A stretch of DNA of 32,246 nucleotides, from positions 1 to 32,246 of IMG/VR virus record IMGVR_UViG_3300008266_000281, one strand, 5' to 3'. Below, piece after piece: positions 4,961-28,730 of this stretch. The position numbers were made by a program, and so were the translations under genes. How positions within the stretch are numbered: position 1 is the stretch's first letter; each line of letters opens with the position of its first letter. The stretch comes from a virus. A model generated the notes under the pieces. The model was given only the letters and a program-made list of their open reading frames with translations, was not told the origin of the DNA and made no database searches.

Positions 4961-5342
4961 CGACGACAAGGCGCTGGACAAGATTATCCGCGCATCAATG
5001 CCACTTGATTTTGAGCGGAAGGAAACTTTGTCGAACGACAAGGCGCTGGTGGGGCGACTGCGGTGGTCGGCATCTGGCAAGGTAGGTGCAGAACAAGCGC
5101 GGCTTGAGCGCAATGCCGCAGACCGCATCGAAACGCTTAACGCTATGCTGAAAGCCGCAGAAGAAAGTTTGGGCGATCAACTGGCAGCGCGTAAGGAACA
5201 GGCCGACCGCATCGAAGCCCAAGCGGCAGAGATTGAGCGGCTGCGTGAGGCGTTGCTGGATGTGCTGGTGTATGCGCCTGATTACATGCACGGTATGCCA
5301 AAGAAACACTACGCAAAGATTGCTGAGGGTAAGGCCGAATGA
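4953..5342 (+). CDS. Coiled-coil hypothetical protein B (129 aa)
   Basis: The GTG at 4953 has GGAGG at 4941-4945, seven bases away; a GTG at 4947 is too close to it. The product has an acidic start (TDDDKALDKI), a central coiled coil with ADRIETLNAMLKAAEESLGD and then ADRIEAQAAEIERLREALLD, and a tail YAPDYMHGMPKKHYAKIAEG. It shares the coil repeat with the preceding gene, exactly at the DNA level, and has a third weaker copy at about 5114-5128. No enzymatic motif is visible. It is joined to the next gene by ATGA. Confidence 0.6.
   Translation: MTDDDKALDKIIRASMPLDFERKETLSNDKALVGRLRWSASGKVGAEQARLERNAADRIETLNAMLKAAEESLGDQLAARKEQADRIEAQAAEIERLREALLDVLVYAPDYMHGMPKKHYAKIAEGKAE
5202..5230 (+). repeat. 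29-bp exact direct repeat, copy 2
   Basis: Identical to 4742-4770, inside coiled-coil protein B. A related 15-base piece (GCAGACCGCATCGAA) occurs earlier in the same gene near 5117-5131. Confidence 0.9.
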
Positions 5343-5881
5343 GCAGCAAGGACATCCCCCTGCACCAGTACGTCTGGGTCTGGAGTTCGCTGATCCGCGA
5401 GGGTTGTCCAGCTGATCTGTTCGAGCCTGCCGTATGGTTTGCCATACGCAGCGAGCCGGGCCGTGCGTGGGGGTGTCACGTCATGCTGGAATGCGGCGCG
5501 GTCTATCGGAACCTGCCGCCGCATTCGATTTCGTTTGCCCCACAGGTAAAAGAAACTTGGGGCCTGAGAGATGCGCAGGTTTGGGATTGCTACGGCCACG
5601 AGTTCGACGTGGTGCGGTATCAGTATCTCGCTGATCTGCGCGCCCGCTATGACGGCACGGAGAAGCGCGCGCGGTATCTGTTTACAGCCTGCCCCCGTGA
5701 CGATGGGTTCAGCGCCGAGCCTGAGCAGAGCAAGGAGTTCATGTTCATGAGGACGGATGACAATCGCCTGCTGATCAGGCCGACGAACATGCTTCTGTTC
5801 GAGGAGCGCAGCTTCACGGAGGATACTGGCTGGCCATCTGATCTGCGGGTGTCCCGCTGGGTATGGAGGTGCGAGGGATGA
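5339..5881 (+). CDS. Tryptophan-rich hypothetical protein (180 aa)
   Basis: It begins MSSKDIPLHQYVWVWSSL at the ATG of an ATGA overlap. The sequence is rich in Trp, Tyr and Arg with a conserved-looking core FEPAVWFAIRSEPGRAWGCH and MLECGAVYRNLPPHSI. I do not recognise the family and see no nucleotide-binding or metal motif. It is the largest gene in the tiny-gene cluster. There is no signal peptide, so it is probably cytoplasmic. The next gene starts in its stop codon. Confidence 0.6.
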   Translation: MSSKDIPLHQYVWVWSSLIREGCPADLFEPAVWFAIRSEPGRAWGCHVMLECGAVYRNLPPHSISFAPQVKETWGLRDAQVWDCYGHEFDVVRYQYLADLRARYDGTEKRARYLFTACPRDDGFSAEPEQSKEFMFMRTDDNRLLIRPTNMLLFEERSFTEDTGWPSDLRVSRWVWRCEG

Positions 5882-14100: not shown

Positions 14101-14226
14101 CGAAGCCGTCGTAATCCATGAGCCAATCGATCCAATGTTTCGGATAGGATCAATCGTCCTCGGAGGCGGCGTCTGCTTATCCAGAATGTTATCGGTGATG
14201 TCGATGGAGCAGTTCGAGCCAAGCAT
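11194..14226 (-). CDS. Polyvalent-protein-like C-terminal half (1010 aa)
   Basis: The start ATG overlaps the stop of the upstream gene as TGATG. The long helical protein contains FGRYFQYGSSVISITEELNK, then GGVVFQFSQYALNLMALLKQ near residues 642-662, a layout I associate with the C-terminal part of phage proteins annotated as PLxRFG-containing polyvalent proteins. One hydrophobic segment (GTFVLLSMYTVAGLLFAIPF, about 680-700) could enter a membrane. The end is very acidic (EEDLIPEEVEEEDEDAP). With the preceding ddrB-ParB-like protein it may make up a split polyvalent protein carried in the virion and injected with DNA. An internal ejection protein is the simplest alternative. Confidence 0.5.
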   Translation of the reverse strand: MLGSNCSIDITDNILDKQTPPPRTIDPIRNIGSIGSWITTASSLARKSKLFQPMHRITNEKVKMRNYLMAEHEDMLHELNLMPDESRQKINSVLEYLRLSRTVVRDTGRPFSIKTRELFREGKDGINRRVQPELSKPGQVLKLNANETRLLHEIRNYLESRYTLNAKSILSALGYEGNYSRDSIMNTVEDEDFRDDLLRLYDALEARRVISYIPFMRSGDTRVMVYGPDGTLESGAFYMLDSLEWLKDIVGPKIASTIPDPGVDKQIKAIQAKFPASEGYKIVVSKMGADMNQRLSIDDLSSLDKLLNLMDARSGDMVKKYFEKTLGGMFSEDVVKNVSARDAEAIAKGFIADLDKNVRSVLMDDLIAGFMKESRDIPGYDTNFTDRLLDYNRIVATTVSDRMYRKEYSEAFDNLKRNAAEPERKYAESWDQYVDSPEWGVWRAARTIGFFNSMWGSIASSAVNAMSVWAVTAPQMLNMKATAGVDVYRMGVQVMAGFRGSVGYGLHINPEKIPGLTRDERDALTLANKRGTTRAQMNPELMGMEAGVALSKPGPVKKTFGRYFQYGSSVISITEELNKNAAFIVAYRYAKDPVALKNWKETYKEDERAQDIMARGSDPFEVAEFMVETTTFMGGQIEKPRIMRGAGGVVFQFSQYALNLMALLKQNFMKQGKRGKIAGTFVLLSMYTVAGLLFAIPFGDDAINIFEWMYKSMNGEDLDVRMEAQQMLADMFGNGEEGRRAAEAVLYGPTRQLTGLNIGQRVGFTSLLPEMGDPVSAIPALSTTIGKFKEYIDRRNSGVQPIAAYTALVSPFIGKGPTDLVKGFVQYPEEGVRTRYGTSVMKPDAIDWGERFARGFGFQSADIARKQQAATAAKRISESTRNAERNNTLRLSKLLVDAAEADNKGNPAQAERLRAEFDRQLSAIVDEFQKDVEAGKMDKAIKPPSEQALKEAMLIEMYPEMKMNNVGKLKRQAWIDAMRTALVEDNEEDLIPEEVEEEDEDAPLQVDEIE

Positions 14227-17200
14227 CAGTCGCAGCCCCTATTCTGTTTCTGCAGGTTCGCACGTTCGTTCATGATCTTATCGTCTGGCTTTTCAGCCTT
14301 GGCAATTGCCTTCTTCATGGCGGAGGGGCTTCCAGAAGTGAGAACTTCATTAACCTCAGCGTTGTTATCAGAATCGGCAGCAAGCAAATCAGCTTGCTCG
14401 GGACTGGAGATGCTATCCAGAATCTGCTCTGGCGTCAGCTGCTCAGTGGCAAAAAGCTGCTCTCCAGTGGTCTGCTCGCGAGCCCGGCGCACATACTTAT
14501 TCAGAACGTCTGCGATGGCATCGCGACCGGCAGCGCGGCCACCAGTCGCATTATAAAACGAACGGATAAAGCGCTCAGTGATTGGGTTCAGCGGATTGAA
14601 TGCGTCTTGCTGGGCAAGGAAGTCGTTGATCTTCTGGCCCCGATTGCGCACGTCACGCACAATCTTAGCGGCTTCGACCAGCTGATCCGTGACATCCATC
14701 TCTTCGCGAACACGGCCCTCGGTCACGTCATCACGCAGCGCACGCCAGTTCGGAGCAACATCTTCCAGCGCCCCACCAATACTCTTGATGTTGTTGTCCT
14801 GAGACTCATCGAGCGTATTAAGAAGATCCGCATCACCGTAAGCTGACGCCTTAATCGCGGTCCGCAGCCGGCGAGAGCCCTCAGCGGAAAGGTTTCCTGT
14901 CCTGTCGAGAAAAGCGGCCTGTTCTTGCGCTGGCATCTTGGACAGAAAGCCACGCACGAAGTCACGGTTCACGGCCTGATTAACATCAGGTGATGCCATA
15001 AGTGCCATAACATCAGGCGTCAGGGCGGCTGCATCCGTGCCAGCCTGCTCGCTAGTGCTAAGACGCAGCTTCGTGTCCATGTTGCTTTCACGGACAAACT
15101 GCGCGCGACCTTCAGGGGTAAGATCATCCAAGCGGCGGCGCACCAAAACGGGACGCTCATAGCCAGTCGTATCATAACCCTGAGACTGAATGAAATCGCG
15201 ATATGCCTGCGCGCGTTCGGGCGATTCGTCGTAGACCTTGTTGATCGCCATCACGCGGCCATTGCCGCTTTCAACGATGTTGTCAGGGCCGATAATCGGT
15301 GAGCCACGATCACTCTCGAGGCTTTCCCCAAGCCGCTCAGGATCGAAGTTCGAAAAGATGTCTTGCACCTGCACGTCGGTTGCAGCCCGGCTGCGGTCGC
15401 GGTTCTGGAGATCGCCTGTGGCAGCCTTGAGATCTTTAGCGTCGACAACCTCGAACGCGGTATCGACCTTAGTGCCGCCCGGGGTCGTGACTGTGCGCAC
15501 TGATTCTGGTGCTGGTGCAGGCCGAGCAGGCGCTGGCGCTTCTGCCTGTTGCCAGTCGCCTGCAAACGGGACATCCGTACCAGCCGTGCGGCTCGCCGCA
15601 TTGTTAAGAGCCTGAGCAAAGTGCAGCGACGAAACGCTTGTCGCCCCTTGATCTGCCGCGATCTGACGAGCTTCTTTCTCAAGACTCGCCATATACGATG
15701 GTGTGTTTGACCGCTCCATCTGTTTAAGCTGAGGCAAAAGGTTTTCATCGATTGGCAGCGTCTCGCCATCATCAATCAATGTGAACTTAGGCTTCTCAGC
15801 GGGAGCCTCAACCACCGGAGCCGGTGCCTCAACCTCAGGCAGACCCTCAGTGATGTCCTCGCCAAACGCTACAGCGCCGACGCCCATTTCAGGCTCAGCG
15901 GCACCGGCCTGCATAGCCTGTGCGATTGCACTCGGATCTTCAGCAAATACGCTTCCATCTTCGTCAACCAGCAAGACGTTTCCGTCATCATCGAAGCCGT
16001 CAAAGATGTATTCCTGCGGGCCAGTCGGCTCTTGCAGCGTAACCTTACCGCCGACAGGGCCAAGCGCCTTGCTGATCGCGCCCATTTCTGGGGGTGGTGC
16101 CGAAGGCGGGGCAGGCGGGGCTGTTCGCGGAGCTTCCGCCTCCGGCGTCTCTTCTGTAGCCGCTGCGCGACGTTCTGCAAAGCCCTGAAAGCCGCCAATG
16201 GGAGCAGCGAGTGCGCCACCCGCAATGCCGCCCAGCACACCGGATGAAAGAACGTCTTCACCAATCGGCCTCTCGGCTGCAGTCCCGAGCTTAGCCACGT
16301 TAGTCGCAAGCTGGGTGCCAGATTCTTCGACGAATTCTTGCGGGATTTCGCCCTTAGCCGCACGAGCTGCGCCGCGAATGATGCCGCCTGCGGCTGGTGC
16401 GCCAGCAAAGACCTGCTGCTCAAGGCCGGGAAGACGCGCCGCCACAGCGGACGTAGCTGCCGCGCCACCTGCCGCAATGTTAAATGCGCGCTGAGCTTCA
16501 GCCTCAGTGCCACCGGCTTCAATCACATCCCTATAGGCTTGCTGGCCAGCGCTCGCTGCGTTGATTGCAGTTGCAGCACCAACAGCCGTAGCACCAGCAG
16601 CACGACGCGCGCCGGTTTCACCAGCCAAACGTAACGCGCGGGTTCCGATCTGTGCGCCCTTACCCAAGCCGAGAGGAATCAAGGTCGGCAGCACCTGCTC
16701 GGCAGCAAACTCGGACGCTCCACGAGCCGTTTGGAACGGGGCTTGAACCTTAGCGATAGTCTTCGCCGCCTCTTCTGGAGTCTGCGGCAGGAACTTCTGC
16801 GCAAGGAAACTGGCAGCCATGCCGGGAACCGAGAGCGGAGAAAACTGCGGCCTGCTCAAACCAGCCAAAATCTCCGAACCCAGACCGGGCTTGGCTTCAC
16901 GAACGAAGGCAGCCTGACGTGCTCGCTCAGCGATTGATGACTGCGGTAGCTCTGCCTCTCCACGCTCACGCAATCCAGTTGCAGCCCGCTTCAAGGCGGT
17001 CGTGACAGGTCGCTCTGAAATCTTGCGCTCACCGAGAATGGGATCAAACAGGGATGCAGATGAGGGAATCTTTTGAAGGATACTGACTAGACCCTCGCCA
17101 ATCTCACCTGCAGATTTCTTCAGGGTTGGGAGAACGCCGCTAAGGACTGACTCTTCTTCCTTCTTAGGAGCAGGTGGCTTAGCGCGCTGCGCGGGCGCGG

Positions 17201-17312
17201 GCGCAGGTGCGCCAGCAACAATCGCCTGAAGGTCATCCTCAGTAGCGCCTTGCGGAGCTTCAATTACATACCGTCTGCCGGCATATTCATATACGTAACG
17301 ATAGTTTGCCAC
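14226..17312 (-). CDS. Polyvalent-type protein with ddrB-ParB-like domain (1028 aa)
   Basis: The start is a GTG with AGGAG six bases upstream; a nearby ATG at 17314 is out of frame. The N-terminus (YRYVYEYAGRRYVIEAPQGA) is typical of phage injected or polyvalent proteins. Residues about 190-380 hold several long Ala/Gly-rich hydrophobic helices. A Pro/Ala/Glu-rich linker follows. From about residue 620 to 780 lies a ddrB-ParB-like region: DLQNRDRSR, SPIIGPDNIVESGNGRVMAI, GYERPVLVRRRLDDLTPEGR. The ParB-like fold suggests nucleotide or DNA interaction or host-defence interference. The family link is by motif recall. It ends in TGATG with the next gene. Confidence 0.65.
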   Translation of the reverse strand: MANYRYVYEYAGRRYVIEAPQGATEDDLQAIVAGAPAPAPAQRAKPPAPKKEEESVLSGVLPTLKKSAGEIGEGLVSILQKIPSSASLFDPILGERKISERPVTTALKRAATGLRERGEAELPQSSIAERARQAAFVREAKPGLGSEILAGLSRPQFSPLSVPGMAASFLAQKFLPQTPEEAAKTIAKVQAPFQTARGASEFAAEQVLPTLIPLGLGKGAQIGTRALRLAGETGARRAAGATAVGAATAINAASAGQQAYRDVIEAGGTEAEAQRAFNIAAGGAAATSAVAARLPGLEQQVFAGAPAAGGIIRGAARAAKGEIPQEFVEESGTQLATNVAKLGTAAERPIGEDVLSSGVLGGIAGGALAAPIGGFQGFAERRAAATEETPEAEAPRTAPPAPPSAPPPEMGAISKALGPVGGKVTLQEPTGPQEYIFDGFDDDGNVLLVDEDGSVFAEDPSAIAQAMQAGAAEPEMGVGAVAFGEDITEGLPEVEAPAPVVEAPAEKPKFTLIDDGETLPIDENLLPQLKQMERSNTPSYMASLEKEARQIAADQGATSVSSLHFAQALNNAASRTAGTDVPFAGDWQQAEAPAPARPAPAPESVRTVTTPGGTKVDTAFEVVDAKDLKAATGDLQNRDRSRAATDVQVQDIFSNFDPERLGESLESDRGSPIIGPDNIVESGNGRVMAINKVYDESPERAQAYRDFIQSQGYDTTGYERPVLVRRRLDDLTPEGRAQFVRESNMDTKLRLSTSEQAGTDAAALTPDVMALMASPDVNQAVNRDFVRGFLSKMPAQEQAAFLDRTGNLSAEGSRRLRTAIKASAYGDADLLNTLDESQDNNIKSIGGALEDVAPNWRALRDDVTEGRVREEMDVTDQLVEAAKIVRDVRNRGQKINDFLAQQDAFNPLNPITERFIRSFYNATGGRAAGRDAIADVLNKYVRRAREQTTGEQLFATEQLTPEQILDSISSPEQADLLAADSDNNAEVNEVLTSGSPSAMKKAIAKAEKPDDKIMNERANLQKQNRGCD

Positions 17313-17329
17313 ATGGCACTCCTATCATA

Positions 17330-18757
17330 TTATTTCTTGATTGGCTCAGAAGAAAGAATTCTGCCGGCAGGTTTTTTCTTGGGAGCAGCAGGCGGCGGCA
17401 TGAGGCCCATCTGGACTGAAAGATTCCTGAGCATCAAGTTGTTCGCTGTCTTCTGCGCGCGCGCCTCTTTCTTGATCGCCGGGTCAGTAACTAACGGATT
17501 TGAAAGGATTTTATCCAAGTTAGTATTGCTCGTCGTCAACGCCGTGAACACGCCCGTGACGCCCCTAGTATTACCGCCAGTCTTATTAAGACCGGCTGCA
17601 GCAGCCTGAGCGCGCCGCGCCTCACCTAGTGCCAAACTGGCTGACAGTTCTGCCTGAGCAATCTGCGGTGCGAACTCAGCCTCAACCTCTTTAATCCTAG
17701 CCTCGGCCTTACCCTTTGTAATCGTCGGCTCCAGCAAAGCCGTGCGCAGTGCCGTTTCGTCGTCTATCTTGGACAGCTCAGCGATGTCCTTGTCCATCGT
17801 CATGCCAGACTTAATCATGCTGACGGCGTCATCGCGAGCCTTCTGGATCAGCTCGTAGCGCTTCAGAACAGCAGCATCGCGCGCTTCACCAACGCCCTCG
17901 ATGCCTTCTTCGTTTTCGTTCTTTGCCTGAGCATAGGCGCGCAAACCTGTCTGCAGGCCGCGAGACAGAGCCTCACCGAAACGTTCGCCACCGCGACCCT
18001 GCGCCATAGCTGCGCTGCCAGCCAAGAGAGCCTCCCAAGGAGACAGTCGCTTAGCTTCTGCCAGACGCTCTTCACGGCGCTGCAGGCGCTGCTCTTGCGA
18101 CGCCAGCGCCGATTGGAACTCCTCAGGGATTTCGGCAGCTTCTTCAGCCTGCACGTAGCCCTTGAGCATGTTAGCACGCTGGGTTAGCGCACGGATGCGA
18201 GCTTGCTCAGTGATCGGAACGTCAACGCCCTGATCGCGAGCCTGCTGCATCAACGCTTCACGGTTGTTAAGTTCCGAGACAGTCTCATCCAGCAAGCGCC
18301 GATAGCGCGATGGACGGACACCTTCTTTCGGAGCGCCGGCAATAGTCTCAGCGGTCAGCCTTTCTTCAGGAACCTGCGGCGCGGCAACAGGCGCAGCCTC
18401 AACGGCGGCACGCTGACGTACATCCTCAGGCAGCTCGAGCGGGCCGCCAACGGCAGGAGCTGTGGGCTTGGGAGCAACCAGCGCCACGCCGGGCTTCATA
18501 GGAGCCGGAGTTGCCGGTGTGACAGTCTGCGGAGGGGTGAGCATAAGCGCACTGGCAATCGCGCTCTGCGGTAAACCTTCAAATGCAGTCTCGCGGGACA
18601 TCCCGCCGGGCGTCATTACTGCCTCGCCGACATTGGCGTTGCCTTCATTGACCATGATCTTGGCAATCAGCGTATCAAGATTCATAGCCTGAAGCTCAGG
18701 CTTCATGGCCCGCAATTTAATTGCCGCTGCCCGAGCCTGCTCACGTGTCATTGCCAT
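17330..18757 (-). CDS. Helical virion or ejection protein (475 aa)
   Basis: It starts MAMTREQARAAAIKLRAMKP in a TGATG overlap with the upstream gene. The order is a helical N-terminus, a Pro/Ala-rich linker (about residues 75-125), and long charged coiled coils from about 140 to 390 rich in Glu, Arg and Ala (EQRLQRREERLAEAKRLSPW). The tail is basic and proline-rich (PPPAAPKKKPAGR). Composition and place between two probable internal proteins and the polyvalent proteins suggest an internal or ejection protein. No enzymatic motif is visible. Confidence 0.5.
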   Translation of the reverse strand: MAMTREQARAAAIKLRAMKPELQAMNLDTLIAKIMVNEGNANVGEAVMTPGGMSRETAFEGLPQSAIASALMLTPPQTVTPATPAPMKPGVALVAPKPTAPAVGGPLELPEDVRQRAAVEAAPVAAPQVPEERLTAETIAGAPKEGVRPSRYRRLLDETVSELNNREALMQQARDQGVDVPITEQARIRALTQRANMLKGYVQAEEAAEIPEEFQSALASQEQRLQRREERLAEAKRLSPWEALLAGSAAMAQGRGGERFGEALSRGLQTGLRAYAQAKNENEEGIEGVGEARDAAVLKRYELIQKARDDAVSMIKSGMTMDKDIAELSKIDDETALRTALLEPTITKGKAEARIKEVEAEFAPQIAQAELSASLALGEARRAQAAAAGLNKTGGNTRGVTGVFTALTTSNTNLDKILSNPLVTDPAIKKEARAQKTANNLMLRNLSVQMGLMPPPAAPKKKPAGRILSSEPIKK

Positions 18758-19731
18758 CAGCGCACATCCTTCAACCAGCCAAGCCCGTGCATCGGACTCT
18801 TAAGGTTGCGCTTGCCGTCCTTGACGGGGCTTTCAACCTTGCCGCCCTCAGCCTTAAACAGACCAGTCAGCCAGCCCGTCTTACCAAATGCGCCAGTCGA
18901 ACCCAGCGCGCCGACAATACTGCCAGCCGTGCTGAGGGCCGACGACAGGCCAGACGTACCCGGCTCAGTGCGTGTAACAGTTCCGCCCACGCCGCTTGCT
19001 GACGGGACGCCACCGATACCTGCGAGCTGTTGCACCTGATACAGCGGATAATCCCGCTGACGCTGGAAGTCTTCATAGGCCAGATTGGCAGATGTCTGCG
19101 CCAGATCCTGACGCTTCGCACCAATAGCCTCGAGGCCAGCCAATTCGCGCAGGCGCTGTTGCTGCTCTTGCTCGCCGAGAGAAGCAAACTGACCAGCGCC
19201 TGTAAGCGCGCGGCTTGCTTCCGTACCGTAGAGGTCCGCAGCGGTCTTATAACCCTCAGTCAGCGCCTCCATTTGCTTTGCGAGGGCCTGAGCCTGCGTA
19301 TCGCGGATGGCGCGCTGCGTGAATTCTGCACTGCGTGAACCACCGAATGTGCCGCCACCGATAAAGGTGCGGTTGATCTGAGGCAGAATGTTTTCGTAAA
19401 GATTGCGGCCAGCCATCGCGCCGATACCCGACACGACGTTCTGAATGTACGGATTCATGTAACGGCCAGCGACGCCCGGATCTGTGAACGAGCCGGTGCC
19501 GCGGCCAAGCTGGGCGGAAGCCACGTTAATATACGGCTGATACGAGCCCATCGTTGCGCGATAAGTGCCGAAAGCCTCTTCTTGCTCAGGCTGGAACCCG
19601 GCAATGCGCGGCGCGCTATAGGCCATGTAGGGCTGGTTAGTGGCGGCAGTTGCCCGGCCAAGGAGATCCTTGGCGTATTGAGTGTACCATTCAGGGAGAA
19701 CGGTCTGTGTCTGGGTAGTCTGCGTCGCCAT
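18757..19731 (-). CDS. Virion protein, ejection-protein candidate (324 aa)
   Basis: It starts in a TAATG overlap. The protein is helical with a repeated-looking Gln/Ala-rich core (LPEWYTQYAKDLLGRATAAT; FGGSRSAEFTQRAIRDTQAQ; DFQRQRDYPLYQVQQLAGIG). A hydrophobic Gly/Ser/Ala segment near 265-290 (LSTAGSIVGALGSTGAFGKT) and a basic end follow. I have seen this layout in podovirus-type structural proteins of unknown role. It contains AEGGKVESPVKDGK near its end, a motif shared with the next gene downstream of the tail hub. An internal core or ejection role is inferred from its position. Confidence 0.55.
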   Translation of the reverse strand: MATQTTQTQTVLPEWYTQYAKDLLGRATAATNQPYMAYSAPRIAGFQPEQEEAFGTYRATMGSYQPYINVASAQLGRGTGSFTDPGVAGRYMNPYIQNVVSGIGAMAGRNLYENILPQINRTFIGGGTFGGSRSAEFTQRAIRDTQAQALAKQMEALTEGYKTAADLYGTEASRALTGAGQFASLGEQEQQQRLRELAGLEAIGAKRQDLAQTSANLAYEDFQRQRDYPLYQVQQLAGIGGVPSASGVGGTVTRTEPGTSGLSSALSTAGSIVGALGSTGAFGKTGWLTGLFKAEGGKVESPVKDGKRNLKSPMHGLGWLKDVR

Positions 19732-22133
19732 TACACTGCACCTCCGACTGCCTTCAGCATATCTTCAATGCCACGCTGAGGCTTCGCAATTTTCTTCACG
19801 TCCTTACGCCCTGCCTGTTTGCGCACCATCTGGCGCATCTTGTCAAGACGCCGCACACCTTCGTCGGTTGAACCGTCACCAAGATCCGCAACGTCTTGCG
19901 CACTCCAGACATATTCACCGTCCGAAAGCCATGCCGGAATCTTATCTTCCTGACCGCTGCCGATACCCTTAACGCGACCCGGGCCATTGTGACCACCGCC
20001 CTGACGATAAGCCATGAGGTGGCTTACCATATCATCTTCGACTTCGCCACCCTCTGCCATTGCGGGAGCAAGGCCGCCAGCCGTGAGGTATGTGTTCACC
20101 GCATTCTGTGCGCCAGATAGATCATTCTTGGCAATGAACGGCTCGACAGCCTGCTGCAAACCACGAGCGCCAGCCGCGTCGAGCTTGCCAGTGCTGAAGT
20201 AAGAGTTCGCCAACGGCGTGACGTAATCCATGTAATAGGACTGAGCCGTCATGCCCGGAGCTGGTGCGGCGCGAACGGCTTGCACCTGCGTCGGGATAGC
20301 GGAAATCGTGGCCTGACGCGCCGCTTCATCAGCTGCCATCTTGGCCATCTGCAAGTCACGCATCGACATCTGAGTGCCTACCAAATCAGGCTTGCCAATC
20401 GCATTCGCGGTTGCCTCATCGATGTCGAAATAAACGCCCGGCAGAATTGAACGCGCCTCAGCCGCTGTCGGCGCTGCTTTTGCCGCCGCCATGATACGGT
20501 CGATCTCAGCGAGTCGAGCCTGCTCAGCTGGGCTGGCAATCTGCGTAAACGTCGATCCTGAACCGCCGCCCGTCGTTCCGCCTGTTGTGCCGCCCGTCGT
20601 GCCACCCGTCGTGCCACCTGTTGTGCCGCCTGTTGTGCCGCCTGTTGTGCCACCGCCAGTCGTGCCGCCACGATTGATCGGAATACCCGTCGTCGGACCG
20701 TTATATGCACCAGAGATGCCAAATGGCGCGCCGTTTTCCGTGAAAAACAGGAATTCACCCGGCTGATTTCCGCTTGCCTGACCATAAGAGAACGGATCGA
20801 AGCCGATGTTCGCGAGGCCACGACGGATCGGAGTGTAGGTATACGTGCCGCCAGTCGGGACGAGATTCGGTACTTCCGTCGTTGTCGTCGTGGTTGTCGT
20901 CGGGGTTTCATAAACTGGGGTAATATCCCCATAAGGATTGATGACGCTGACATCTTCCTTCGTCGTTGTGGTCGAACCAGTAGACGGGAAGAGATTCGTC
21001 GACTCCCTAGCTGTTACGATGATCTCATCGTCCTTAGGAAGCGTCGTGTCATTCTGCTTGGTGGTAATGGTATTCGACCCGGGAGTTACCGTCAGATTGG
21101 TAAGGGGCGTGCCATTTACGAAAATGGTGCCTTCCTCATCCTGAGTTACGTCCATATCCTGACCTAAGGCTTCATTTCCGATTCCAGAAATTTCACCAGC
21201 GGTGACCTTCGGAATTCCGGGGCCAAGCGTCAGATTCGTATTGCCGGCAGTTACGATGATGTTGCCGTTCTCATCAACAACCTGACGCTCGCCAGATGGC
21301 AATGTGCTTTGGCTCGTCACAGGACCAATGTCAGGTGATCCCGTATATGTTAGCGTGGCCCCCTTAGGTGCCGTGACCATAATTTCGTCAGGGTATGAGC
21401 TGTTGCTGACCCCATAGTTGCCGCCACCAAGCCTGATCCCAGTGGCGTTTGAAATATCATAGCCAACGTTTGTCAGGCCCTTATAGATGTCGCCAATGCC
21501 CAAGGTGTTGTCTTGGATAGCCCCGCTAAGTAAGCGATTCGTACCGTAGGTGCCAATACCAGCCATTGCGCCGCCAGTCAGGGCTTGCTCAAGGCTTTGG
21601 CCAGTTACTAAACCTGCGCCAGTTGCCCCAAGGCCGGCACCAACTGCCTGACCAAGCTCTTTCGAGATACCAATATCAGGTGCAAACTTAGCGCCAAGCT
21701 GGCCTGCCCCAGCCGTCGCAGCAGCAAAACCAGCGCTCTTGACGATGTCGCCGAGATCACCGCCGCTGATAGCCGTATCGACAGCATTCACCGCAGCAGC
21801 AGCGCCGACAGGGCCAAGAACCGGCGTGAGCATAACCGTAGCGCCGATCTTGGCGACGCCCTTTACGATCTTGCCAAGCGTCTTGAAGAAACCAAACGCC
21901 GGCAAACCAGTCTCAGGGTTGATCGCCGGCTCACCCCACATCTCACGGAGCTGTTGCAGCTCATACTTGTTGACGTGGATCAGCTCGCTGTCGCCAGCCA
22001 TGTTTGCAGCAGGGGAGCCTTTGGCTGCTTTGGCAGCGGCGACGAGGCCGCCATCCTTGTAAGCACGGGGCTTACGTGCAGGGACGTGGACCCAGTAACG
22101 CTCTTCTCCACCAATGCCTGCAAGAGCTACCAT
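19731..22133 (-). CDS. Large virion protein with TonB-box-like motifs (800 aa)
   Basis: The ATG follows the previous stop by one base. Domains in order: a short basic start with KDGGLV; a Gly/Ala-rich hydrophobic region (about 76-200) that looks membrane-active; a beta-rich region with DEIMVTA (249-255), NIIVTA (291-296) and DEIIVTA (369-375); Thr-rich linkers; eight Thr-Thr-Gly-Gly units (491-524); a helical region; and a C-terminal block with IPAWLSDGEYVWSAQDVADL and LDKMRQMVRKQAG, a tail common in phage structural proteins. It is probably a virion protein that contacts or crosses the host envelope. The three IVTA motifs resemble TonB boxes, but they could be plain beta strands. Confidence 0.55.
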   Translation of the reverse strand: MVALAGIGGEERYWVHVPARKPRAYKDGGLVAAAKAAKGSPAANMAGDSELIHVNKYELQQLREMWGEPAINPETGLPAFGFFKTLGKIVKGVAKIGATVMLTPVLGPVGAAAAVNAVDTAISGGDLGDIVKSAGFAAATAGAGQLGAKFAPDIGISKELGQAVGAGLGATGAGLVTGQSLEQALTGGAMAGIGTYGTNRLLSGAIQDNTLGIGDIYKGLTNVGYDISNATGIRLGGGNYGVSNSSYPDEIMVTAPKGATLTYTGSPDIGPVTSQSTLPSGERQVVDENGNIIVTAGNTNLTLGPGIPKVTAGEISGIGNEALGQDMDVTQDEEGTIFVNGTPLTNLTVTPGSNTITTKQNDTTLPKDDEIIVTARESTNLFPSTGSTTTTKEDVSVINPYGDITPVYETPTTTTTTTTEVPNLVPTGGTYTYTPIRRGLANIGFDPFSYGQASGNQPGEFLFFTENGAPFGISGAYNGPTTGIPINRGGTTGGGTTGGTTGGTTGGTTGGTTGGTTGGTTGGGSGSTFTQIASPAEQARLAEIDRIMAAAKAAPTAAEARSILPGVYFDIDEATANAIGKPDLVGTQMSMRDLQMAKMAADEAARQATISAIPTQVQAVRAAPAPGMTAQSYYMDYVTPLANSYFSTGKLDAAGARGLQQAVEPFIAKNDLSGAQNAVNTYLTAGGLAPAMAEGGEVEDDMVSHLMAYRQGGGHNGPGRVKGIGSGQEDKIPAWLSDGEYVWSAQDVADLGDGSTDEGVRRLDKMRQMVRKQAGRKDVKKIAKPQRGIEDMLKAVGGAV
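20562..20663 (-). repeat. 12-bp minisatellite encoding Thr-Thr-Gly-Gly
   Basis: Eight tandem units of about 12 bases encode TTGG repeats at residues 491-524. Two unit types alternate on the plus strand (CCTGTTGTGCCG and CCCGTCGTGCCA), each with adjacent identical copies, consistent with recent slippage or unequal exchange. Confidence 0.9.
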
Positions 22134-22134
22134 C

Positions 22135-22392
22135 TTAAGACCCCTGACTAATTACGTCGTTAAAACGCATCGCCCACTCACGCCAATCGTCAAACTGGTA
22201 TGCGCTTGGAACCCCCAGACCGGCGAGTGACGCGATGGTTGATAACCCAGAAGCCCAATCTTTCCAATCTCTTTCGTCCATAAGGCGCACAGCAACGCCA
22301 AAATCCTCGATTGACGGGAACATATAGTCCGCCCATTCGACAACATTGTCGACAACGCGAGGGTCAATCGTGGTAGTGCGAACCTTACTCAT
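22135..22392 (-). CDS. Small hypothetical virion-operon protein (85 aa)
   Basis: It starts in an ATGA overlap with the tail-hub gene and ends one base before the next start. The sequence is acidic and aromatic (VVEWADYMFPSIEDFGVAVR; DDWREWAMRFNDVISQGS) with no recognised domain. Its fixed place between hub and the 800-residue protein suggests a small structural or assembly role. Confidence 0.6.
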   Translation of the reverse strand: MSKVRTTTIDPRVVDNVVEWADYMFPSIEDFGVAVRLMDERDWKDWASGLSTIASLAGLGVPSAYQFDDWREWAMRFNDVISQGS

Positions 22393-23993
22393 GACTGGTA
22401 GCGGCCATCCGCCGCTTCAATGTGGGCGATGACCTGACCCATCTGGTAGTCCCCGCCAACCGTGTTCGATGAGAACTTAAAGCGAAGCTCGCGGCGCTGC
22501 TCCTTGAAGAACACCTGCTGCTCGTACTTCTCGGTAGCCACAGCCGGGAACGTGCGGATTGGGCCGGGGACTTCAGGCGCACGGGCGTTGATGCGGCCCG
22601 TTACCTGCGCCGTCATATCACCAGACTGCACGAAGTCAGGCTCGATCATCTCAACGTGAATGGACTTATTCTTCGGCGGATCGGAGATGATCAGGGCAAT
22701 ATCGCCAGTCTCAAAGTAGCTCTCAACCGCATTGAGCTGCGCGCCGTCGATCTCATCGACACCAAACTCATGCTGCCAGATCTTATAGCGCGTCGGGCCA
22801 TTACTGACGACGCGGGTGTTATTGTCTTCCGTGATGCGCGTATCGTTCGCCTGCGTGATGCGCGTGTCAGGGATACCCGGGCTGATCGGATCGATGCCGG
22901 CAAGTATCGGATCCTGCAGCGAGCCTGAGTAAATCCCCGCAGAGCGGCCCAGATTCGGCAGCTCAGTGTCGTACCATGTGTTCTCGCGGAAGTTATAGAT
23001 CACGGCGTGCGTGCATTCTGTGGCCTCGCCACGCGGATAGCACCACCAGATCTCACCGAAGCGCGGAACTTTATACGCGAAGATCTTATTCGCATACGGC
23101 TTGTTCAGCCCTTCAAAGAAATAATTGATGTTCATGTTGTTCACGACTTCGCGAACGACGCCGTTGTACATCATGAAGCGGCCATCACCGACCCAGAAGT
23201 AAATCCCGTCATACTCAATCACGCTGTTAACCGCGATGATCGATGACGACGAGCTGATCGTGTCGAACGCGAATACGTCCGTGCCACCCGTGTAATAGAC
23301 GCGAATCAGGCTATCCAGCGTCCAGAGAAGCCCTGCCGGGTTCTGACCACCGCCACGCAGCGGCAGGCCCTTGACGATCTTCGAGGAAGCGATGAACGCA
23401 TCGCCCGCATCCCCAGTCGTGAAGTTCGTCGGATCGTTCGCGTCGGACCATTTAACATAACCGTTCGACGAAAACATAAACAGATACGGGTGAAGCACCA
23501 CCACGCCGCCAGACACGCCCGGTGTCGGGATCTGCGTCAGGGGAGCCGTATCGTAAATGTTGCCGATGTAAGCCGGATAAACGCTGCTGGTTGAGATGTC
23601 GTTTGCCGAGTTCGCGGCATGGGCGATCAGCACAGTCGAGCTGCCAGCGCCGTCATAGAGTGCGTCGAACTGCCACATGAATCCTTCGCCGCCCGTGTAC
23701 GTCGTGGGTGTACGATCCGTCACGGAGCTGGTGTTGCCGACGTTATCGATAGTCATGCGCTGCACGCCAGTGCCGTGACCCATGTGCGTATAGGTGAAGT
23801 TATTCTGCGCCTGCAGGTGGAACTGCCGCACAATGCCCTCAGCGTAATTGCTGATCTGCCGATAGCCACCGATCTTACGCGGCAGCCCGCGCTGAAAGCG
23901 GACCCACTGCCCGTCAACGTAGAAGTTCCCCTCGAACTTCGTGCCGTCGCGCTTGATGCCGGCCTCTGATCTTACGTTAACGGGTACGAGCAT
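22389..23993 (-). CDS. Tail hub / DNA-stabilisation protein, P22 gp10-like candidate
   Basis: The 534-residue protein is beta-rich with propeller-like repeats: LFMFSSNGYVKWSDANDPTN, LDSLIRVYYTGGTDVFAFDT, YDGIYFWVGDGRFMMYNGVV, VIYNFRENTWYDTELPNLGR. This order and the WxGDGRFxxYxG segment fit the packaged-DNA stabilisation or nozzle proteins of podoviruses (P22 gp10 type). A near-triplicate stretch with DTRIT, DTRITED and NTRVV lies near residues 375-395. Its start codon directly follows the previous stop. It would close the portal and connect to fibres. Assignment is from pattern, not alignment. Confidence 0.55.
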   Translation of the reverse strand: MLVPVNVRSEAGIKRDGTKFEGNFYVDGQWVRFQRGLPRKIGGYRQISNYAEGIVRQFHLQAQNNFTYTHMGHGTGVQRMTIDNVGNTSSVTDRTPTTYTGGEGFMWQFDALYDGAGSSTVLIAHAANSANDISTSSVYPAYIGNIYDTAPLTQIPTPGVSGGVVVLHPYLFMFSSNGYVKWSDANDPTNFTTGDAGDAFIASSKIVKGLPLRGGGQNPAGLLWTLDSLIRVYYTGGTDVFAFDTISSSSSIIAVNSVIEYDGIYFWVGDGRFMMYNGVVREVVNNMNINYFFEGLNKPYANKIFAYKVPRFGEIWWCYPRGEATECTHAVIYNFRENTWYDTELPNLGRSAGIYSGSLQDPILAGIDPISPGIPDTRITQANDTRITEDNNTRVVSNGPTRYKIWQHEFGVDEIDGAQLNAVESYFETGDIALIISDPPKNKSIHVEMIEPDFVQSGDMTAQVTGRINARAPEVPGPIRTFPAVATEKYEQQVFFKEQRRELRFKFSSNTVGGDYQMGQVIAHIEAADGRYQS

Positions 23994-24404
23994 TTATGGT
24001 TTATCCACCCATTCTTCAGCAGGCGCAACAGGCCATACAGGGTTGAGCAAGTCAACGCCACGAAGTTCTTGGCGATAAGCTGCAAAAGCTGTCTTGCAAT
24101 CCTCCGTGAGCGGAACGTCAGCAAGTTGCGTCCAATCAGACCCACTTAAAAGACTATTGCGCGTCTTGCGGTTCTGCTCTTGCCCTTCGTAGTCAATAAA
24201 TGCAGGGACAGGTTCCTTTTCGACAAAGGAACCATCAACATACAGCCACCCATTATCGGATGCATGGGGTGGCTCTGCCTCGATAAGCAACGCATCCGGT
24301 GCGATGGTTTTGGAGATAACCGTATCGTTCACCATGTATGCGTCAGGCGTTTCTTCAATATCGCCCACCGCAATCACAAAGTTTTTGTCAATTAGGCTGC
24401 TCAT
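23994..24404 (-). CDS. Tail fibre assembly chaperone-like protein (136 aa)
   Basis: The C-terminal half has RNSLLSGSDWTQLADVPLTE followed by AFAAYRQELR and PVWPVAPAEEW, the hallmark of the phage tail assembly chaperone family (Phage_tail_APC type). The N-terminal half (KNFVIAVGDIEETPDAYMVN) is a small beta domain that often varies with the fibre. It overlaps the preceding fibre gene by ATGA, the usual position for a fibre-specific chaperone. It likely helps fold or attach the 954-residue fibre encoded upstream. Confidence 0.78.
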   Translation of the reverse strand: MSSLIDKNFVIAVGDIEETPDAYMVNDTVISKTIAPDALLIEAEPPHASDNGWLYVDGSFVEKEPVPAFIDYEGQEQNRKTRNSLLSGSDWTQLADVPLTEDCKTAFAAYRQELRGVDLLNPVWPVAPAEEWVDKP

Positions 24405-27265
24405 TGAGCGGCTCCTTTGTCAAATACATGGTAGAGTTCCATGCGGAGATTTGAAGCATTACGGCCAAAGAATAGAATTTTATCGCTATTAGGAACGAAG
24501 TTATCACTCTCGACCCAATCTTGGATGTTGCAGTGCATGGATAGACTGGGGGCAAAAGATTTTGTTGGGCCCAAAATTGTGGGGTTTTCGGAAAACGTAG
24601 CCGTTGATGGTGTTACGGTTGCCTTGCCAAAATAACCCATGTTGTTTCCGATAACCATGACTGAGTTTTGGTTAAACGGAAGGGTAATTCCCGTTGCATT
24701 AAAATTATCAGCACTAACTGAGCCTATTGTTCGTATATTGGCATCTGGTCCAGAATACGAAATCGAACCAAGCGAGCCACTACCGCCAGTGCTACCCATA
24801 CCAACATAGGTACCGGGGCCGAGAAGAGCGCTATAGAGAATTTGGTTGTTGGCAGATACCGTATTTGTTCCTGACGACAAATTTGTCGGGCTTGTTCCGG
24901 AAACGTTAAATTGTTGAATATACCCAAGGGTGCCGGATTGAACTGAATAAAAATACCCGATGGTTCCTAGATTAAACAATATCCGGCGGCTTGTGCTGGA
25001 CTGCGCTGCGGCATCACTCGTGGACACATACGACGGGCTTTCCGTCAGCGTAGTGCCACTAATCGCAATGTTGTAGATACGATGATCCGTTGATGAATTA
25101 GATACATACATCATCGCTTTTGTAGAACTAATTCTGCAAAGCGCAGGCCGAACACCAATTAATGAAGCGCTAGTAATAGACGTATTAAAGGTAAAAGTAT
25201 CACCAGTAATGTCTAAAGTCCTAATTGTACCTGCTAGGTTAGGACTTGTAGAGTAGGCAATAAGCGCCCGTGTCGGCGACAACGGTGTCGCACAAAATAT
25301 AGACGCGGTTCCAATGGTAGTCGATGTATTCAGTACAACTGGGCGCGCCCCAGATGTATCAATCAAATATAAACGAGAACCAACCGTCCCATCTGACATC
25401 ATATTGAATGGTACAAATGCAAGCGCGCGCGTCTTAGACAACGTGCAAATCGCAGGAAAGCCAGAAGAAACTTGCACATTCTCTTCAGTTACTAGCAGCC
25501 CGGTTCCGGGCGTGATGACCGTTCCACTCACCGACATGGGTACGGCAAACACATAGTTAGTGCTTGTATAATCCATATACAGATCAGTTGATGGCTGCTG
25601 AATTGGATCGAACGCAACAAATCCTTTCAGCGAAAAAGGAGCTGGGCTAGTAGACAACGGCGTTGGGTTGTTCGCAATCGTATAAGTGGTACCCTTAACC
25701 AAACTTGTCCCAGATTTTGTATAAACCGCTGCGTAAGGCTTGTTGAATGAAGCGTTGGTGTCATACCAAACAACAACCGCAGCTGTACTGCTGATTGGAT
25801 ATGTTGCACAGCTATACAGCGTAGAACCGCTTGGAGTATGTGAGTTCTGAGCGCCAAGGGTAATAGTAGTGCCACTTACGCTTCCATAATACGCACGGAT
25901 AACTGAGTTATCCGTCATAGCAAAAATGAATTCAGTTGCCGAAAGTCGGCAAAGAGAGAACTGAAAGCCGTTAGAGCCTGTAGTAAATGGACTGACTTCC
26001 GTTCCCCAGTTAATCTGGGTTCCAGATAAATCGCCTACTACAATACCTACTTCTAGGCCGGGGCTATTCACATATGCCGCAACGACTTTAGTCGATGACA
26101 GCGCGATGAGTTGTGGGAACTGAGTTACAGACGATGCTGCGCCACCAGCCCACGGAACTGAGGTTATATTACCTACAGCCGTTATCAGGCCGCCGGAAAG
26201 AGTTAAAACCCTAGAATATAAAAACCCGCTGGCATGATACATTACAACTGCATAGGTCGAAGACAGCGTCGTTATTGCGATGCTATTCGCGTTAGAAACG
26301 GACGAATTGGCATCAATGGAAGTCCCACCCGTAATCTGGATATTATCATTTCCATCAAGCGAAAATGTATAGAGATTGATGGCCCCAACAGCGCCGCCAC
26401 TAGATCCGTTAAAAGTCGTAATAATGCCAGTTGTAGCGCTAGTCATAACGACATTGATTACGCCGATACGGGCGCTGTTTTGAGTGAAATTAAATATATA
26501 CTGCGGGGCCCCCTTTGTGATGTTAGCCCCACTTTTAGTTATAATCGTAGCCGTCACGCCATTTGTTGAAGACGAACCATAAATAATTCGGATCATTTTT
26601 GTCGCGCTAATAGCAGCTGTTACGCTGTTTTGCGCGTTAACCTGAGAAACTGCACTGCTAGTAAACCCAAATGAAACTGGGCTGCTAAAGCCATAATTGG
26701 GGTTGTCGGCCACCCAAACGCCCGCAGCAGTCGAAACGCTTTCGGCTGTGATATTTACTGTTTCCCCAGCAGCAACAAACGCCTGATACGTTCCGTCGCT
26801 GCTCCTTACGAACATATTGTTCTGTTCGCTTATATTTGTGATTTCGAAGGTTTTGCCTTCTGTAAGCGTTGTCGCATTCGGAAGCTGGATCATAATCGAC
26901 ACAGTTGGATCCACAACGACTTTGCCGACGTTTGCAGCTGTGAGGGTAACATCCGTCGAGCGGTTTAGAAATTCTGTATACACTCCGATTGCTGAGGATA
27001 CCCATCCTGTTCCGTTGCTGGTCAGGACATTGCCCGCAGAACCCGGCGAAGATAGGCCAGTGCCACCGTTTGCCGCCCCAAGTGTTCCCGTCAAGGTGTT
27101 CGCCGGGATCCCGCCCGTCGCCGTCAGCGTCCCCGCCACAGTGACGTTCGCACCGTTAACCGTCAGCCCCGTAACCCCGCCAGACTGAAGCTCCAGAATG
27201 CCAGAGCCGTCGCCAGTGACTACCGCGCCGCCAGTGGTGTTGCTTGCGTTGATGGTTGTTGGCAT
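24401..27265 (-). CDS. Tail fibre with beta-propeller-like repeats (954 aa)
   Basis: AAGGAA precedes the ATG. The N-terminus (TGDGSGILELQSGGVTGLTV; GGTGLSSPGSAGNVLTSNGT) is a fibre shaft module shared with neighbouring genes. From about residue 200 to the end there are twelve or so imperfect repeats of 40-60 residues with the pattern LSxTxAhhhY then hhxhSGTxIT: for example LSSTKVVAAY, LSATEFIFAM, ISSTAAVVVW, LSPTRALIAY, ISSTKAMMYV. This predicts one long or two stacked beta-propellers, suited to glycan or protein receptor binding. Base composition is lower in G+C than in the neighbouring hub gene, which hints at acquisition or rapid evolution. Confidence 0.75.
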   Translation of the reverse strand: MPTTINASNTTGGAVVTGDGSGILELQSGGVTGLTVNGANVTVAGTLTATGGIPANTLTGTLGAANGGTGLSSPGSAGNVLTSNGTGWVSSAIGVYTEFLNRSTDVTLTAANVGKVVVDPTVSIMIQLPNATTLTEGKTFEITNISEQNNMFVRSSDGTYQAFVAAGETVNITAESVSTAAGVWVADNPNYGFSSPVSFGFTSSAVSQVNAQNSVTAAISATKMIRIIYGSSSTNGVTATIITKSGANITKGAPQYIFNFTQNSARIGVINVVMTSATTGIITTFNGSSGGAVGAINLYTFSLDGNDNIQITGGTSIDANSSVSNANSIAITTLSSTYAVVMYHASGFLYSRVLTLSGGLITAVGNITSVPWAGGAASSVTQFPQLIALSSTKVVAAYVNSPGLEVGIVVGDLSGTQINWGTEVSPFTTGSNGFQFSLCRLSATEFIFAMTDNSVIRAYYGSVSGTTITLGAQNSHTPSGSTLYSCATYPISSTAAVVVWYDTNASFNKPYAAVYTKSGTSLVKGTTYTIANNPTPLSTSPAPFSLKGFVAFDPIQQPSTDLYMDYTSTNYVFAVPMSVSGTVITPGTGLLVTEENVQVSSGFPAICTLSKTRALAFVPFNMMSDGTVGSRLYLIDTSGARPVVLNTSTTIGTASIFCATPLSPTRALIAYSTSPNLAGTIRTLDITGDTFTFNTSITSASLIGVRPALCRISSTKAMMYVSNSSTDHRIYNIAISGTTLTESPSYVSTSDAAAQSSTSRRILFNLGTIGYFYSVQSGTLGYIQQFNVSGTSPTNLSSGTNTVSANNQILYSALLGPGTYVGMGSTGGSGSLGSISYSGPDANIRTIGSVSADNFNATGITLPFNQNSVMVIGNNMGYFGKATVTPSTATFSENPTILGPTKSFAPSLSMHCNIQDWVESDNFVPNSDKILFFGRNASNLRMELYHVFDKGAAQ

Positions 27266-27275
27266 GGGTTATTCC

Positions 27276-28730
27276 TTAGATATAGCGCTGGCGCATATTA
27301 AACGAATTCAATCGGATTGCACCACTGGCCGCAGCGCGAGTCCAAGCCCCAGTTGGCAATGCGTTTGTGTTATAATAAAGACCACCAGCAGTTAATGCGA
27401 TCCATACAGACCCATTATGGATAAGGGTGTAAACAGTATTCCCACCAGCGAAGCTCGTTACAGATGTCCACGAACCGCTACCGGTTGTAGAGTAGGCAAG
27501 CGTGTCAGCCGTTGCTGTTGTTGTAGCCGCCATCACGCCGTTCGACGCTGCGAATGCAACTTGATTGAACGTAACGCCAGTTGAAGTGTTATTAGTCCAT
27601 CCTGTCTGCGCATTATTATTCGTAAAATATGTCGCTGTAGATCCGCTACTAACAGTAAACGCGAATCCAGACGCTCTGTTATATTGGATTAAAGTACCTC
27701 CAACCCCAGAAGCGACGCGCGTCGTCCACGAAGTTGCCCCAGCGGAGCAAGTTCTCAACGAGATAACCGAGTCAATAGAAACAATAGCAACTGTAGCGGA
27801 TGTGCCTACTGTCCCTGTATCAATGTACAGCAAATCAAAAACAGATCCTGAGCTTGAGTAATTTATCGCGGTTTTTGTAAAACTACTCCAATTTGTCCCT
27901 GCGCTTACATATAGGCCAACCTGAAGATTTGTATTATCAAATGTAGTTACAACAAGCGCACCATTGCTATCGTCCACTGCGATTTTTTCGACAGTTTCGG
28001 TGGAGCTAGCTCCAGCCTTACCTCTGAAATTCATCAGCGCCAATGACCAATTAAGGCCATTTTTAGAAGAGTAAACGCCGTATTGAGTTGTGGCAATAGC
28101 TTCAAGCCCGGCACAAAACCAGCAGCCGTAATATGAGGAATAAAAGATTGAAGTTGCAGCGATTAAGCTTGTGCCGGTATATGTTATGACTTGCGCGCCA
28201 GCAAAACCTCCAGCTGACAACATGTCTGATGGAGAAGCGGCTAAAAAGTTACCATTATTATTGGTCAAACCAGCCACCGAGAACTGCCCAAAGGCCCCCG
28301 GGACGAAGTTAGGCGTGTTCCACGTCGGCGGATTACCAGCGCCCCCAGACGTGAGGTACTGACCGCTAGTTCCAGACGCCACAGCACCAAACGCACCAGC
28401 GTTATTGATCTGCACCTGACCCGTAGACCCAGCAGGCGTCGTCGCAGGCACCGTAGCAAACGCCAACTGCCCCGCACCATTAGTCTGCAGATACTGCCCA
28501 TTAGTCCCGTCAGCCGTAGGCAATGTCCACGTCGTATTCGCCGACAGCGAATTTGGCGCTTTCACAGCCACATAGTTCACGCCATTAGCAGTCGCTTCCG
28601 GCAGTTGCAGCTCAGCGCCCGCGATGGCAGAAGCCGTGACCGCGAAAGGCGTCGCCTGAGAAACTGCCTTCGACTGCGTGGAAGCGTCAGGAAACGTAAT
28701 CCCAGTATCGCCGCTAATGGTCGTGCCCAT
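27276..28730 (-). CDS. Tail fibre with Asp-box-like propeller (484 aa)
   Basis: The N-terminal 160 residues are a fibre shaft module (DGTNGQYLQTNGAGQLAF; TSGQYLTSGGAGNPPTWNTP). The remainder contains at least five BNR/Asp-box-like turns: YSSKNGLNWS, YVSAGTNWSS, CSAGATSWTT, FTNNNAQTGWTN, YSTTGSGSWTS, spaced 40-60 residues apart. This suggests a sialidase-type beta-propeller that binds a surface glycan; no clear catalytic Tyr/Glu pair or arginine triad is visible, so binding is likelier than cleavage. The end NMRQRYI closes the last blade. It starts five bases after the previous stop. Confidence 0.7.
   Translation of the reverse strand: MGTTISGDTGITFPDASTQSKAVSQATPFAVTASAIAGAELQLPEATANGVNYVAVKAPNSLSANTTWTLPTADGTNGQYLQTNGAGQLAFATVPATTPAGSTGQVQINNAGAFGAVASGTSGQYLTSGGAGNPPTWNTPNFVPGAFGQFSVAGLTNNNGNFLAASPSDMLSAGGFAGAQVITYTGTSLIAATSIFYSSYYGCWFCAGLEAIATTQYGVYSSKNGLNWSLALMNFRGKAGASSTETVEKIAVDDSNGALVVTTFDNTNLQVGLYVSAGTNWSSFTKTAINYSSSGSVFDLLYIDTGTVGTSATVAIVSIDSVISLRTCSAGATSWTTRVASGVGGTLIQYNRASGFAFTVSSGSTATYFTNNNAQTGWTNNTSTGVTFNQVAFAASNGVMAATTTATADTLAYSTTGSGSWTSVTSFAGGNTVYTLIHNGSVWIALTAGGLYYNTNALPTGAWTRAAASGAIRLNSFNMRQRYI

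Follow-up and report, generated by a model that had tools for sequence, protein, structure and literature searches.

TonB-box-like motifs recur in a putative ejection protein of uncultured freshwater phages

Introduction

TonB-dependent receptors carry a single TonB box, in which I-V-V-T-A/G comes after an acidic residue. The box is part of an unstructured stretch and lies after the signal peptide, just ahead of the Plug domain (PF07715). In group B colicins and klebicins, such as colicin M and KlebC, a TonB box is located in a disordered region and is gripped by TonB while the proton-motive force drives import (PMC11658791). Infection by phages T1 and phi80 (PMC11658791) and H8 (PMC10504331) involves TonB; in T1 it is needed for irreversible adsorption, via the receptor (PMC11658791), and in these phages TonB works via the box of the receptor, with no description in these sources of a box carried by the phage. 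Here we analyze a protein of 800 amino acids encoded by the virus record IMGVR_UViG_3300008266_000281 (32,246 bases, the whole of which is referred to as the window), which carries three motifs resembling TonB boxes.

The window protein and its relatives share with the receptors the acidic residue, the I-V-V-T-A/G core and the unstructured setting, but they lack a match to Plug, and their linker carries up to five boxes. They also resemble the TonB-dependent bacteriocins, which are imported and bring a TonB box of their own within disordered sequence; these differ, however, in usually having one box close to the N-terminus, in being soluble toxins and in their demonstrated use of TonB, whereas the phage proteins are encoded in structural cassettes and their use of TonB is a proposal. 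No precedent for a TonB box associated with a phage ejection, virion, tape measure or internal virion protein was found in a search limited to an open-access library. The motif recurs among homologs of the window protein and strongly fits the TonB-box profile of host receptors; we give about an even chance to the reading that the array consists of TonB-box mimics which would engage the host TonB during ejection.

Recurrence of the Motif in Homologs

Relatives of the gene were present on 26 viral contigs, and 47 close relatives of the protein were gathered from viral contigs and one contig of an alphaproteobacterial metagenome-assembled genome. The strict core, defined as [DE]x(0-2)[IVLM][IVL]V[TSN][AGS], was detected outside the C-terminal module 62 times in the 32,989 residues of these 47 members versus three times in 124,140 residues of 253 neighboring proteins. 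When 17 distant relatives were added there were 63 strict cores, against a mean of 2.0 and a maximum of 8 in 500 block shuffles, while 40 non-redundant members had 53 strict cores distributed over 24 proteins (shuffled 1.5, maximum 7 in 1000 shuffles). The reversed class pattern did not occur at all, the median across 720 class permutations was also 0, and in a prior-free enrichment of 4-mers IVVT ranked second, behind GIGG, with 35 occurrences versus 0.78. The recurrence of the motif in homologs is not due to chance; plain tandem duplication accounts for some of the copies (those in L010 and L237).

Among 75 five-residue cores, I was found at the first position in 71, V at the second in 62 and at the third in 74, followed by T (48), N (18) or S (9) and then by A (44) or G (27), usually with D or E ahead; much of this composition is set by the five-residue pattern, and what is informative is the acid ahead of it and, among the residues allowed, the predominance of I, T and A/G. 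Regarding the window protein, only DEIIVTA fits the strict pattern, DEIMVTA missing it by the M at the second core position and DENGNIIVTA by a spacer that is too long, and all three fit a looser pattern. The linkers are also strongly enriched in another short motif, [ASV]GIG[GSN] (GIGG, 84 versus 5.9 expected), found for example at residues 5-8 of the window protein. This motif is present in the neighboring ejection protein (18757-19731) too.

Relation to the TonB Boxes of Host Receptors

A matrix was built from receptors only, by expectation-maximisation on receptor N-termini (consensus EIVVTGNR), and its threshold, the 40th percentile of receptor scores, was fixed ahead of the scan of the phage proteins. 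Of the 47 phage proteins, 31 contained matches to this matrix, 62 in all, versus 1.5 in shuffled sequences and three in 126 thousand residues of neighboring proteins. The matrix had no match in the 17 distant tape-measure-like relatives, which are mostly actinobacterial, and among seven control phage stretches only that of P22 had a match, a single one. Motif 2 of the window protein, in which the acid is more distant from the core, is the weakest of the three, being not above the threshold of 11.2 and absent from the top matrix matches.

In the reverse direction, a matrix built from the phage proteins only was applied to 70 alphaproteobacterial receptor N-termini, and in 42 of them its best site, at a score of at least 9, a cut picked after the ranked list was seen, lay 11-29 residues ahead of the Plug domain (40 of them at 11-20). 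The coding pattern [DE]IVVT[AG] had 33 matches in three alphaproteobacterial genomes versus one for the backward control. Thirty of these loci were read: in 21 the motif is immediately followed by a Plug domain, five are long frames whose motif is N-terminal, and four are short frames. The Plug share is not transferable to all hosts given that the genomes were selected as receptor-rich. The likeness to TonB boxes pointed out in the preliminary description thus holds in both matrix directions for the alphaproteobacterial box, and the sequences provide a strong fit to the host-receptor profile.

Structure and Conservation of the Motif Region

Stops interrupt the plus strand of 19731-22133, and the 800-residue open reading frame is read from the minus strand. 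Its product begins with a variable region that includes a hydrophobic segment; next come a long low-complexity linker with the motifs, a conserved segment, a helical domain and the C-terminal module (Table 1). The three motifs were confirmed at residues 249-255, 287-296 and 369-376, as was the hydrophobic stretch said to precede them, which is rich in Gly and Ala and would be membrane-active or glycine-zipper-like. Their placement in a "beta/linker region" stood as regards the linker but not the beta structure: in the AlphaFold model the predicted local distance difference test (pLDDT) is below 50 across residues 201-461 and 27-45 in the motif region, and the model of the homolog L013 has values of 26-47 around most of its sites. 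Low pLDDT is compatible with disorder but is no proof of it, and the alignments are shallow; the motifs probably lie in disordered sequence downstream of the hydrophobic segment, and the three segments of the window protein were not found as buried core strands.

As to the expectation that the motifs are conserved while their flanks vary, the motif is recurrent among homologs but not universal. In an alignment of 16 sequences around L013, core identity was 0.54-0.57 versus 0.30-0.33 in the flanks at three of the five aligned sites. Matched sites have synonymous codon differences with the residues retained, and the positions of the motifs vary among homologs, with variable flanks.

Regarding the other parts of the protein, the helical domain is also present in L010 (63%), and the C-terminal module is 80-93% identical across proteins that are otherwise very different. 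Residues 719-753 of this module, together with short overlapping stretches, are similar to the C-terminal ends of tape measure proteins (phrog_6090, phrog_5448, and phrog_17300) around IPAWLSDGEYV; these differ in that only about 35-80 residues match and the remainder is unrelated, and membership of a tape measure family was rejected, there being no full-length family match. No Pfam match was detected in the window protein, neither Plug and beta barrel nor a toxin domain, and fold searches with its model gave no meaningful structural match.

The Motif in Other Phage Proteins

In an unbiased scan, viral contigs were searched for DNA encoding DEIVVTA and EEIVVTG, which revealed three kinds of protein (for DEIVVTA, among the matches listed). 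The first consists of relatives of the family, some with a different C-terminus, in which between two and four copies are retained (L363, L414, L401, L409, L272, and L283); the motif is thus kept in members with another C-terminus (L363, L414, L401, and L409), and the RW-like members L399, L302 and L387 also belong here. The second is an unrelated protein of 410 amino acids (L237:2499-3728), encoded beside a portal-like gene and without any family match, which has five copies in Pro/Ser-rich repeats, two pairs of them being plain duplications. The third comprises proteins with single copies: a tail tube protein (L282:7689-8630) has an N-terminal ELDEIVVTARRPTS ahead of the tube domain, and L429:3145-4347 and L433:2178-3476 have the N-terminus MEEIVVTGRRE, to which L362:6105-7298 is added. 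The proteins of L429, L433 and L362, whose function is unassigned, are similar to a receptor TonB box at this point but are without a signal peptide. No relatives of L429 and L361 were found among named phages, and the motif was not found in the wider relatives DSL-LC04 and MinM2.

A protein of the pelagiphage Skadi-1 annotated as "TonB-dependent receptor domain protein" (L439:4719-5165), from which the authors of Skadi-1 inferred a TonB receptor, was considered as a precedent and rejected; it has 148 amino acids, is a neighbor of the capsid gene and contains only DGLIVTATTAG, and the annotation is probably erroneous.

The phages with the motif protein are uncultured freshwater phages with one cultured cousin, which infects Caulobacter. 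The Caulobacter phages RW, GB2A, RLK and KcrB represent one species (PMC11053796) and have the same three-gene order as the window. In gp66 of RW, DEIVVTPSQ is barely above the receptor threshold and is accompanied by the looser VDPVVVNPP and VDELVIKPP; a scan of viral contigs with this protein revealed no relative. It is the best available test system, with a weak instance of the motif.

Genomic Context of the Gene

The motif gene is flanked upstream by a phrog_3287 gene, whose relatives carry the annotation "phage stabilization protein" (P22 gp10-like), and downstream by a phrog_4287 ejection gene. This is the position of an ejection cassette, and the order (gp10-like, motif gene, DNA-ejection protein) suggests an injected protein. 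Comparable gene orders are present in Sinorhizobium phage phiM5 and LUZ24, and homologs of the neighboring genes, though not of the motif protein, were detected in phiM5 particles by the annotators of that phage. It is probable that the window protein is internal to the virion of a podovirus-like phage and is ejected, both its presence in the virion and its ejection being suggested by gene order and relatives.

The likeness to the podoviral ejection proteins of P22 and LUZ24-like phages lies in this arrangement, after a gp10-like gene and beside a phrog_4287 protein. Comparison of the full-length window protein with the P22 and LUZ24 ejection proteins revealed no sequence match, and the control genomes of P22 and LUZ24-like phages differ in being without the motif, apart from the single match in the P22 stretch. 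Small proteins in the neighboring slot of phiM5, OH and MJing1 were rejected as homologs, being about 120 amino acids long and unrelated by eye. The host is probably a Gram-negative alphaproteobacterium. One homolog, L107, lies on a 5.7-kb contig of an alphaproteobacterial metagenome-assembled genome, which may be mis-binned phage DNA and is therefore weak evidence of the host.

Table 1. Features of the window protein and of the genes adjoining it, in the direction of reading.
Feature	Position	Strand	Remarks
Upstream gene, P22 gp10-like ("phage stabilization") structural protein	22389..23993	minus	phrog_3287
Gene of the 800-residue motif-bearing protein	19731..22133 (stop included)	minus	relatives on 26 viral contigs
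Hydrophobic Gly/Ala-rich helical segment, about residues 89-208	21510..21869	minus	helices pLDDT about 35-66
Motif 1, DEIMVTA	21369..21389	minus	receptor matrix 15.4 for EIMVTAPK, threshold 11.2
Motif 2, DENGNIIVTA	21246..21275	minus	
Motif 3, DEIIVTAR	21006..21029	minus	receptor matrix 11.3, barely above threshold 11.2
Conserved segment FDPFSYGQASGNQPGEFLFF, about residues 444-467	20733..20804	minus	relatives: DPFTYGQ..GE..FF
Helical domain, about residues 535-690	20064..20531	minus	sole confidently predicted part (AlphaFold)
C-terminal module, residues 692-800, contains GIGSGQEDKIPAWLSDGEYVWSAQDV	19731..20060	minus	80-93% identical in relatives
Downstream gene, DNA ejection protein	18757..19731	minus	phrog_4287
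Two more presumed ejection-cassette genes (475 and 1028 amino acids)	14226..18757	minus	

Possible Functions of the Motif Array

If the motifs act as TonB-box mimics, the protein would leave the head, reach the periplasm and present its boxes there, where TonB would take up a box as an additional strand of its C-terminal domain, in the manner known from receptors and group B colicins; the proton-motive force relayed by ExbB-ExbD would then pull or hold the ejected protein and thereby help ejection, with multiple boxes serving as successive or alternative handles. In this scheme the binding of TonB, the location of the protein and the direction of the effect (help to entry) are proposed by analogy. 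The proposal for the group as a whole, that it carries its own TonB-box array on an ejected protein and uses TonB-ExbBD directly, not via a receptor's box, for powering or steering entry, is held more tentatively, at somewhat below an even chance. Known TonB-dependent phages need TonB via an outer-membrane receptor, and phage-borne boxes would represent a different use of the same machine. If true, the unrelated portal-adjacent protein of L237 with its five boxes would indicate that the strategy arose more than once, the driver of early podoviral ejection would become testable in Caulobacter with phage RW, and a simple sequence signature would be available for spotting such phages in metagenomes.

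Several observations weigh against a role of the motifs as TonB boxes. N takes the position of T in 18 of the 75 copies and is rare there in the receptor sample. The possibility that homologs lack the motif, raised at the outset as a potential refutation, applies to some of them: 16 of the 47 members are without a site above the receptor-matrix threshold, yet five of these 16 hold a strict-pattern copy and a few members without a site are cut at contig ends; 19 members have no strict-pattern copy, and the motif therefore appears dispensable within the group. At two of the five aligned L013 sites the core is no better conserved than the flanks, in a part where the alignment is poor, and a helix predicted with low confidence begins at the first L013 site. 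The cultured representative, RW gp66, offers just a weak DEIVVTP copy. Lastly, many tape measure proteins end in GDIVIPVYIGGDMIDEIVVTAQQRMNLRSGGR, where DEIVVTA resembles one arm of a terminal beta hairpin; the ends GDIVIPVYIGG(D)MIDEIVVTAQQRMNLRSGGR, for example in L243, L258 and L269, have the same heptapeptide in a fixed hairpin-like setting. Ends of this type are widespread among phages that infect Gram-positive bacteria, hosts without TonB. Since DEIVVTA is apparently an ordinary hairpin there, the heptapeptide has no evidential value by itself, which calls for care in motif searches, and the case for TonB boxes rests on repetition, disorder and recurrence instead.

The main rival, unlikely in our judgment, is that the motif is a docking peptide added as a strand to the portal, the capsid, the scaffold or another ejection protein, which would anchor the linker in the head, the likeness to TonB boxes being convergence on an acidic beta-strand peptide. 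Repeated short motifs in disordered sequence would suit such multivalent docking, the motif gene adjoins the portal gene in L363 and L237, N is tolerated in place of T, and GIG[GSN] is enriched in these linkers as well. Docking, however, leaves unexplained why a matrix built from receptors only picks these sites, including the preceding acid and the small residue after the core, and the motif is missing from podoviral relatives, LUZ24-like ones among them, whose cassettes are comparable; it is mainly the two-way match with receptor boxes that weakens it.

Alternatively, and with a clearly smaller probability, an ejected or newly made protein might serve as a decoy that occupies TonB and blocks receptor uptake or TonB-dependent competitors instead of powering entry. 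A TonB-box pentapeptide is said to inhibit TonB-dependent processes in vivo, reportedly in work by Tuckman and Osburne from 1992, which would favor a decoy, and multiple copies would suit sequestration; on the other hand, the gene is located in a structural cassette and not among early genes, and the copy number per virion would presumably be low compared with that of a dedicated inhibitor. Much of the evidence used for TonB-driven ejection is fitted by the decoy and docking readings as well.

Binding of a different partner, a host periplasmic protein or a protease, is very improbable: short linear motifs are readily reused, and the V-x-A ending vaguely resembles signal peptidase sites, but the hydrophobic stretch that signal peptidase requires directly ahead of the motif is missing and the upstream residues are acidic. 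Ordinary linker beta strands or repeat expansion without a specific role, a possibility the preliminary description had allowed for, are already disfavored and rank as the least probable reading. Against them speak the repeated finding of the motif in 24 of 40 non-redundant members whose flanks are unrelated, the absence of the reversed motif and the conservation of the core above the flanks at three sites, despite the plain tandem duplications in L010 and L237 and the tape-measure hairpin, in which DEIVVTA can be ordinary.

Other Features of the Window

The protein of 1028 amino acids in the presumed ejection cassette (14226-17312) has a ddrB-ParB domain related to DdrB of P1, a member of an injected antirestriction set. 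At 5339-5881 a match to a ferredoxin PHROG (phrog_3704) was detected, with none in Pfam. Regarding base composition, the region 24001-28000 has a guanine plus cytosine content of 0.46-0.49, down from about 0.57, and spans genes for proteins of 954 and 484 amino acids adjoining a tail fibre assembly gene; these low-G+C genes are probably exchanged receptor-binding genes.

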